The notes under the pieces are model-generated. The model had not been told where the DNA came from. It saw only the letters and a program-made list of their open reading frames with translations, and searched no databases. 42,755 bases of DNA from Campylobacterales bacterium (GTDB taxonomy: Bacteria > Campylobacterota > Campylobacteria > Campylobacterales > Sulfurimonadaceae), in the NCBI GenBank assembly GCA_014859655.1, contig JACUTT010000019.1, positions 1 through 42,755 of the forward strand. The letters are read 5' to 3'. The translations under genes and the position numbers were made by a program. Shown piece after piece: positions 3,361 through 9,529 of this stretch (position 1 is its first letter; each line of letters begins with the position of its first letter).

Positions 3361-3727
3361 GCATTTATCGCGGACTGCCATTTGGGGAAGCTGGCAAAAT
3401 ATCTTCGTTTCATGGGGTTTTTAGAGGTGCCCTAAAGAGGGACACACCATTCTGGCGCGCGACAGGGGGCTTTTTGAGCGAAAAAAGGCAGAATGTTTTG
3501 TGATCACCTCGCACAAGACGCAAGAGCTGCTGCACGAGCTCATCAAAGCCTTTGCGCTGAAAAAATACCGCCTCCCTTGCAGCCGCTGCATTGTCGGCAA
3601 CACGCCCCTGCAGAGTACAGACAAGCAGAGCATCCTTCACAGGCTTCGGCCAAAGGTCATTGCCTGCTTTTCGCATTTCGAGATCTGCAAACAGTGTGAG
3701 CGCATCTACTGGCACGGTGACCACTGA
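3361..3727 (+). pseudogene. Disrupted Mut7-C family gene
   Basis: Two pieces of one Mut7-C protein (PIN-like RNase domain followed by a zinc ribbon) lie in different frames. The first (3361-3420) reads AFIADCHLGKLAKYLRFMGF, the usual domain start. The second (3437-3727) reads EGHTILARDRGLFERKKAE, runs on to the zinc-ribbon cysteines (CSRC, then CKQC) and ends in RIYWHGDH. Between them, where about 17 residues are normally found, is a short repeat-element end (copy A) that brings an in-frame stop. The first piece also lacks a start: a TGA lies seven codons upstream and no ATG/GTG intervenes. The gene is dead, probably through insertion and imprecise loss of the element. Confidence 0.8.
3414..3433 (+). 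repeat. Dispersed palindromic element, copy A (one end)
   Basis: Contains ggggtttttagaggtgccct, shared with copies B (9458-9498), C (35776-35804) and D (42708-42742). Only one end is present. The junction with the Mut7-C gene is ambiguous by a few bases because ATG GGG TTT belongs to that gene's MGF. Confidence 0.7.
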
Positions 3728-8632: not shown

Positions 8633-8941
8633 TTAGTTGCCGCAGCTCGCCCCGCAGCATTTTGCCGCGCTTGCGTCAAACTGCAGGGTCACCTCAAAAT
8701 GCCCCTCTTTGGCCTCCTGCGTAAAGCCGTATGCGCGGTACGAAGCGATATTTTTAAGGTTTATAGCCTCTTGTTCGCTTGCAGCGATCATTTTCAGAGT
8801 GTTATCGCGGTAGCTGTTTAGCGTCGATTTTAGCTGATGCATGGCATCGGGTATCGGAGGGTTTCGGCGGCTGTCAAGCGGCATCCCCCGGGTATCGAGT
8901 ACCCCGTCTTTGAGATTGAGAGGTGCCTGGTATTCGCTCAT
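8633..8941 (-). CDS. TusA/SirA- or DUF2249-like small protein with C-terminal cysteines
   Basis: The 102-residue protein shows a TusA-fold pattern: LDTRGM, then PPIPDAMHQLKSTLNSY, then an AYGF-x-EAKEGHFEVTLQF C-terminal strand. In TusA the active-site cysteine starts a CPxP motif; here the matching place reads PPIP, so the sulfur-carrying cysteine is missing. All three cysteines are instead in a C-terminal CCGASC tail. It is encoded six bases downstream of an FTR-like gene on the same strand, so the two are almost certainly co-transcribed. A role in thiol redox or sulfur transfer is possible but inferred. DUF2249 is the main alternative family. Confidence 0.5.
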   Translation of the reverse strand: MSEYQAPLNLKDGVLDTRGMPLDSRRNPPIPDAMHQLKSTLNSYRDNTLKMIAASEQEAINLKNIASYRAYGFTQEAKEGHFEVTLQFDASAAKCCGASCGN

Positions 8942-8947
8942 CAGACG

Positions 8948-9259
8948 TTAGGATGAGGCTTTCCAGCCGGCCTTGTCGAGATCGGGACTACCGAAAAGTG
9001 CGCAGTGACATGTACCGTACTCTTTGATCTCATCGTCGATGAATTCGCAGGGGCACATCATCTTTTTGTCAAGCTCGGCATCGCCAGAGGGCTTAAAACA
9101 AGGACAATAACGTTTTGCGAAGGTCGCTTCCATCTCGCTCAGCCATACCTCAAGATTGGTTGACATCATCCAGCTCGGGTTGAGGGCGTAGTTCTTCTGC
9201 GTCGTGTATTTTTGGATCCACTTATGCTGTTTTTTCACCTGCACGTGGTATTGCCACAA
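8948..9259 (-). CDS. Ferredoxin:thioredoxin reductase catalytic-chain-like protein
   Basis: The defining cysteine pattern is present: YCPC near residue 52, MCPC near 69 and GTCHCALFGSPD near 84. In FTR these bind a [4Fe-4S] cluster and form the redox-active disulfide that passes ferredoxin electrons to thioredoxin. The upstream helix HKWIQKYTTQKNYALNP also fits. The open frame begins at TTG 9259 with a poor ribosome binding site. A strong AAGGAG with ATG lies 33 bases upstream in the same frame but is separated by a TAA (9265-9263). Translation may start at the TTG or at a GTG further in, or the gene may carry a nonsense mutation. No variable FTR chain is in the window. Confidence 0.75.
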   Translation of the reverse strand: MWQYHVQVKKQHKWIQKYTTQKNYALNPSWMMSTNLEVWLSEMEATFAKRYCPCFKPSGDAELDKKMMCPCEFIDDEIKEYGTCHCALFGSPDLDKAGWKASS

Positions 9260-9262
9260 GCT

Positions 9263-9303
9263 TTAAAAAAAGCCTATCATCATCGCAAACATTGTTATCT
9301 CCT
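9263..9303 (-). other. Strong RBS and 9-codon leader in frame with the FTR-like gene
   Basis: AAGGAG at about 9298-9303 is followed by ATG at 9292 and nine codons (MFAMMIGFF) before TAA at 9265-9263. Two codons later, in the same frame, is the TTG taken as the FTR-like start. This is either a translated leader coupled to the reductase or the real gene start cut by a stop. Confidence 0.5.
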
Positions 9304-9362: not shown

Positions 9363-9464
9363 TTACGGCTTGCTTTCGAGTACGAAGGATATTTTTGCGT
9401 TGATGTGGTAGGAGATGATTTTCTTTTTGTCTACCTTGGCTTCCATGTTTTCAATGTAGGGCAC
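9363..9464 (-). pseudogene. 3' fragment of a dodecin gene
   Basis: The minus strand encodes VPYIENMEAKVDKKK, then IISYHINAKISFVLESKP and a stop. This matches the C-terminal half of dodecin, a small flavin-binding dodecamer whose members end with a NMxAxV-x-x-G-K-I-x-x-Y-x-V-x-x-K-x-x-FVL pattern. The N-terminal half (about 35 residues with the VIE start and helix) is missing: the frame runs straight into the palindromic element (copy B) at 9458. The gene was therefore truncated at this element and is unlikely to be functional. Confidence 0.65.
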
Positions 9465-9498
9465 CTCTGAAGGCAGTTGGTTTTTTTAGAGGTGCCCT
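9458..9498. repeat. Dispersed palindromic element, copy B (both ends)
   Basis: The arms agggcacctct (9458-9468) and agaggtgccct (9488-9498) are perfect inverted repeats around a 19-base centre. Read on the minus strand the element gives CTAAAAAAACCAACTGCC, closely matching copy D (42708-42742). TA dinucleotides flank both sides. It looks like a minimal inverted-repeat element or two abutted insertion-sequence ends. Confidence 0.8.
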
Positions 9499-9529
9499 AT
9501 AAATGTTAATCAATTCTTGGCTAAAGGAT

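Follow-up and report, generated by a model that had tools for sequence, protein, structure and literature searches.

A single interrupted gene at the locus

The stretch of DNA analysed here (the window, 42,755 nucleotides) carries two small open-reading frames close together on the minus strand, ORF 1 at 9259..8948, encoding 103 amino acids, and ORF 2 at 8941..8633, encoding 102 amino acids. Direct reading of the sequence placed both within a single frame of 219 codons plus stop that runs from 9292 to 8633 on the minus strand, matching uninterrupted homologues in frame and length. Upstream of the TTG that appears to start ORF 1, the frame reads MFAMMIGFF-TAA back to an ATG (9290..9292) that aligns with the homologue start MLxMMIGFF and has a Shine-Dalgarno-like AAAAGGAG and a spacer (ATAACA) ahead of it. 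In-frame TAA codons interrupt the frame twice, at codon 10 (9265-9263), where nearly all homologues have lysine and other residues are rare, and at codon 115 (8950-8948) in the inter-domain linker, where homologues mostly have lysine or glutamine and rarely anything else; the junction of the two halves reads KASS-TAA-RLM. The N-terminal half (8951..9259) is a catalytic domain of the ferredoxin-dependent reductase type, and the C-terminal half (8636..8941) reads LDTRGMP...NPPIPD, corresponds to a cysteine-less TusA fold in an AF2 model of an intact homologue, and ends in a 12-residue tail that closes with KCCGASCGN.

The original prediction had described two partner genes six bases apart, one encoding a TusA-like protein with PPIP at the active site and a CCGASC end, and each of these features is present in the sequence. 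The genes themselves are the two halves of one gene, which is fused in all 41 relatives. Since the gene is fused elsewhere and the stop is in frame, the six bases between the ORFs are two sense codons that follow that stop, and what looked like an operon of two small genes is a single gene with interruptions.

On the 5′ side of the gene, the neighbouring frame is reduced to a truncated C-terminal remnant on the minus strand (9367..9448, MEAKVDKKKIISYHINAKISFVLESKP), which we take to resemble dodecin and which shows an 82% match to the sister genome G024. It is truncated by a short palindromic element at 9457..9499 with about 40 partial copies in the genome, many of them at contig ends, and this element looks like an insertion sequence (IS) end or a MITE that breaks the assembly. 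The element reads AGGGCACCTCTGAAGGCAGTTGG...AGAGGTGCCCT, and ends of it also lie at 3423 and 42708. In G024, the dodecin-like counterpart seems to have in-frame stops upstream. The locus is in flux.

The gene is fused in its relatives

The frame is a single uninterrupted ORF in 41 of 41 distinct homologues that were read over their full length, most of them from Sulfurimonas, Sulfurovum, and Helicobacteraceae metagenome-assembled genomes (MAGs), with two from Bacteroidota. A family search across 151 genomes returned 20 other loci, and at each of them the region of ORF 2 lay in a long frame with an N-terminal domain of the ferredoxin:thioredoxin reductase (FTR) type, the fusion proteins being ~ 205-219 amino acids long, starting [MV][LIF]xMMIGF and continuing via ...GWKASSKRLMSEYQ.... 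A scan of GTDB r220 gave 39 loci, a set that partly repeats the records of the family search. They come from Sulfurimonas, Sulfuricurvum, Sulfurovum, Helicobacteraceae, and a small number of further MAGs, Bacteroidales among them, and all of the full-match loci were fused. When the phylum was surveyed, the domain was present in just 10 of 397 good genomes, nine of which have it in frames of 211-286 amino acids as compared to 104 in the window. The pairing of the two sequences, which had been put forward as a test of the original prediction, is thus conserved in a form stronger than adjacency, and a TusA-like protein lacking the CPxP cysteine and linked to an FTR-type reductase, as that prediction had proposed, is found family-wide.

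The fusion gene is rare and sporadic, extending through Campylobacterota and sporadically into Bacteroidota, and it is always fused except in the window copy and in one broken copy from Bacteroidales. In the latter (L073:8001-8390), the middle of the gene is missing, making it a second copy that was broken independently. A fusion gene whose product is 69% identical to that of the homologue L035 was also found on a contig filed as Anaerolineales (L046:442-1059, JANTFU010000083.1), reflecting either transfer or mis-binning. Neighbouring genes vary from locus to locus, with no conserved operon context across the loci compared and no pointer from the neighbours at these loci to a substrate of the fusion. 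Carriage by viruses or plasmids was considered and rejected, as the viral contigs searched held no relative of the fusion and one Sulfurovum plasmid held just a distant FTR domain (28.6% identity over residues 14-104).

An N-terminal domain of the ferredoxin:disulfide reductase type

ORF 1 scores 65.5 bits for the Pfam family FeThRed_B (PF02943), whose cut-off is 22, and homologues score 63-69 bits. The six cluster and active-site cysteines (CPC/CPC/CHC) are kept in the window and in 41 of 41 relatives, bearing out the prediction of an FTR catalytic chain with intact cysteines. Among solved structures, the nearest sequences were 4tpu (E = 6.9e-12) and 7pwe (E = 3.7e-11), as compared to E = 0.16 for the plant and cyanobacterial FTR, and the predicted fold ranked these in a similar way, with Z scores of 8.8 for 4tpu and 9.5 for 7pwe versus 6.8 for the plant-type FTR. 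Both comparisons, of sequence and of modelled structure, place the N-terminal domain in the ferredoxin:disulfide reductase (FDR) type, nearer to FDR than to plant-type FTR. FDRs are archaeal and bacterial iron-sulfur enzymes related to the FTR catalytic chain, and a thioredoxin-like protein of M. acetivorans is a substrate that one of them reduces (PMC6262447).

The FDR of Methanosarcina acetivorans (4tpu) and the glutaredoxin/FDR of Desulfotalea psychrophila (7pwe) likewise combine a CPC/CPC/CHC domain with a second small domain. In the fusion described here, the partner is a cysteine-less TusA fold instead of rubredoxin or glutaredoxin, and the window copy has two stops. The catalytic chain of the plant and cyanobacterial FTR shares the Pfam family and the six cysteines with the fusion, whereas its sequence is more distant, and its variable chain (FeThRed_A, PF02941) has no gene in the window genome, in a search that was positive for the control, Synechococcus elongatus.

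The C-terminal domain has a predicted TusA fold

No Pfam or NCBIfam match was obtained for the ORF 2 protein. The best result for the TusA profile PF01206 was on one homologue (E = 0.013, 15.7 bits versus a cut-off of 28.6), with none for the window protein, and the YedF profile gave a sequence link to the C-terminal domain at E = 0.07. The DUF2249 profile (PF10006) left the window protein unmatched and gave no match to the fusion genes at E = 1e-3 or better. Assigning the domain to DUF2249 or to TusA by sequence was rejected, since profile-profile alignment by HHalign was too weak for either (probability about 5%), and a fold model was used instead.

For L035, an intact relative, AF2 gave a model with a pLDDT of 89 and a pTM of 0.85, in which the C-terminal domain shows the TusA arrangement of strand-helix-strand-helix-strand-strand. 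The top fold matches of residues 128-207 were SirA, TusA, and TsuB (Z = 5.0-5.8 over 70-73 residues, rmsd 2.2-2.4), led by the SirA-like 3hz7 (Z = 5.8 over 71 residues, 2.2 Å) and followed by E. coli TusA (3lvj, 5.2) and TsuB (5.1); these Z scores are moderate, the next-ranked other folds reaching 4.1. TusA kinship is, therefore, a fold-level assignment that depends on the model, and of the TusA/DUF2249-like identity originally proposed for ORF 2, the TusA fold is upheld by the model while no sequence profile scores above its cut-off and DUF2249 is unmatched.

The position of the CPxP cysteine is occupied by L, M, or P in 42 of 42 rows of the alignment, with the register set by eye from the PxP motif, and among the 41 relatives no cysteine of the TusA-like domain is conserved apart from the last cysteine of the tailed subset. 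Around the former CPxP site lie the invariant polar residues D140, R143, D149, H152, Q153, and K155. When the TusA-like half of the window was modelled alone, confidence fell to a pLDDT of 62 and a pTM of 0.48, a comparison that is not strictly like for like, since the model of the lone domain used the window sequence and that of the fusion used L035; due to this low confidence, the fold search relied on the fusion model. That the loop with the invariant polar residues is modelled confidently just when the FDR domain is present suggests that this face packs on the FDR domain.

TusA and SirA carriers (PF01206; 3hz7, 3lvj, and YeeD/TsuB 8k1r) share with the fusion a predicted fold over ~ 71 residues and an LDxRG...PxP-like register. 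Unlike them, the fusion has no CPxP cysteine in any of the 41 relatives, carries an additional conserved D140-R143 stretch and PD..HQ.K, and matches their sequences below every cut-off. DUF2249 also resembles TusA, has no CPxP cysteine, and shows an LDVR...PxP pattern; its separation from the fusion lies in the profile and profile-profile results given above.

The cysteine tail is not a general feature of the family

The original prediction had proposed that the FTR-like protein reduces a mobile CCGASC tail on a separate TusA-like partner, forming a thiol or persulfide relay, and had named conservation of this tail as a test. The FTR cysteines are intact, the tail is predicted to be disordered (pLDDT < 50 in the AF2 model of L035), and the last cysteine (SCGx) is kept in 10 of 10 tailed relatives, all of which fit such a relay. 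Against it, the CC pair occurs in none of the 41 relatives, 31 of which have no tail at all, the tail-less relatives conserve their FDR and TusA-like domains just as well, and the relatives are fused rather than paired. Given that the CC pair is found in no relative, that most relatives have no tail, and that the domain has no other conserved cysteine, a cysteine relay is not the general function of the family. The tail thus fails the test set for it, and the survey of homologues largely refutes the proposed relay, which we regard as very improbable. In one group of relatives, a tail with a single cysteine could still play a part.

The interruption is best explained by recent loss

Reassignment of the stop codon was rejected as an explanation for the two interruptions, as TAA is an ordinary stop that ends 25 of the 40 large ORFs in the window. 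The sister genome G024 is collinear with the window, with 86-89% nucleotide identity in both flanks, and has ~ 67 bp at this site compared to ~ 770 bp in the window; no trace of the fusion gene was found there, and the other members of the genus are also without it. On the branch leading to the window copy, the ratio of nonsynonymous to synonymous changes was 23:41, compared to 18:26 for the closest intact relative, so there is no excess of amino-acid change (pairwise dN 0.08-0.13, with dS near saturation); together with the retention of all six catalytic cysteines, this speaks against simple decay. As little relaxed selection is visible, selection would have acted on the gene until a short time ago, and the interruption is either recent or a split that is tolerated. 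Loss that happened very recently would leave the ratio unchanged, and a rough calculation, which takes the synonymous branch length as ~ 1, expects 20 changes under constraint, and is good to an order of magnitude only, puts the unconstrained period at ~ 2-3% of the window branch at most.

That no relaxed selection is visible also fits an intact gene in which both TAA codons are errors of sequencing or assembly. The draft assembly is fragmented into 85 contigs, the sequence at the first site is a homopolymer (GGCTTTTTTTAAAGC), and the letters found at the first stop are the same as would result from insertion of a T in a T6 run together with deletion of a G. Two errors would be needed in one 660-bp gene, however, when the seven syntenic neighbour genes are clean and open and the other large ORFs of the window are open as well, and at the second site the differences from the relatives are substitutions that lie in no homopolymer, making error an unlikely explanation, though one with some weight. 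A tolerated fission into a two-cistron unit fits the selection result as well: translation would begin at the ATG (9292), restart at a TTG or GTG for an FDR half that ends at 8948, and restart again at an ATG, after which the halves would reassociate. Both stops fall outside the folded domains, one at codon 10 and one in the linker, and an ATG 6 nt past the second stop corresponds to the nearly invariant Met118 of the family, which fits such a split as well. Yet the conserved N-terminal helix (MMIGFF) is lost through the first stop, the TTG and GTG starts that are left have no visible Shine-Dalgarno sequence, a split occurs in none of the 41 other full-length copies, and the TusA-like half modelled poorly on its own; we consider fission to be rather improbable.

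Very recent loss of the fusion gene fits these observations better than either a tolerated split or sequence errors, and the window most likely holds a dispensable accessory gene that has recently become a pseudogene. With two stops in the frame, the intact fusion would not be made here, and even the reductase half may be missing, so that the fusion product is probably absent from this organism.

Proposed role of the fusion in intact relatives

FTR-type [4Fe-4S] reductases fused to rubredoxin or to glutaredoxin are known, and these wire ferredoxin straight to thiol chemistry. The combination of an FDR domain with a TusA-like domain is a new architecture within this known kind (FDR-rubredoxin, Grx-FDR). 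In the literature searched, coverage of which was incomplete, nothing was found that associates FTR with DUF2249, with TusA and fusion, or with Campylobacterota, and the FDR and TusA-fold fusion family appears to be undescribed, with an earlier description elsewhere possible.

In intact relatives, electrons would pass from ferredoxin to the [4Fe-4S] cluster of the FDR domain, which may then cleave a disulfide or persulfide bound or delivered by the TusA-like domain. The TusA-like domain, predicted to pack on the FDR domain, would serve as a docking or substrate-binding module rather than as a sulfur carrier, a role suggested by the conservation pattern and by the predicted models. Taken as a whole, an interrupted FDR-TusA-like fusion that is a recent, dispensable pseudogene, with a TusA-like domain that docks and does not carry sulfur, is the reading we favour and hold to be reasonably probable. 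More speculatively, and in our view unlikely, the cysteine-less TusA fold could capture a persulfidated sulfur carrier or a low-molecular-weight polysulfide for the [4Fe-4S] site, where ferredoxin would reduce the bound sulfane sulfur directly, with the SCGx tail acting as an extra thiol shuttle in one group. Under the favoured reading of docking, an always-fused TusA fold that does not carry sulfur, in Campylobacterota related to sulfur oxidisers, suggests that a ferredoxin-driven reductase can use this fold for docking.

Two other FDR-type genes are intact in the window genome, one stand-alone and one fused to a rhodanese domain. The FDR-rhodanese fusion (L033:1447-2175; contig C63, ~ 74,886-75,614) encodes 242 amino acids and scores 108 bits for FeThRed_B and 48 bits for Rhodanese. 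It resembles the fusion studied here in combining an FTR-type domain with a sulfurtransferase-related domain, and differs in being an intact gene at another locus whose rhodanese keeps the loop cysteine (CHVGSRS). Of the two fusions, this one is the stronger candidate for an enzyme of this organism that acts on persulfides with electrons from ferredoxin. An FTR frame of similar size is present in the sister genome G024.
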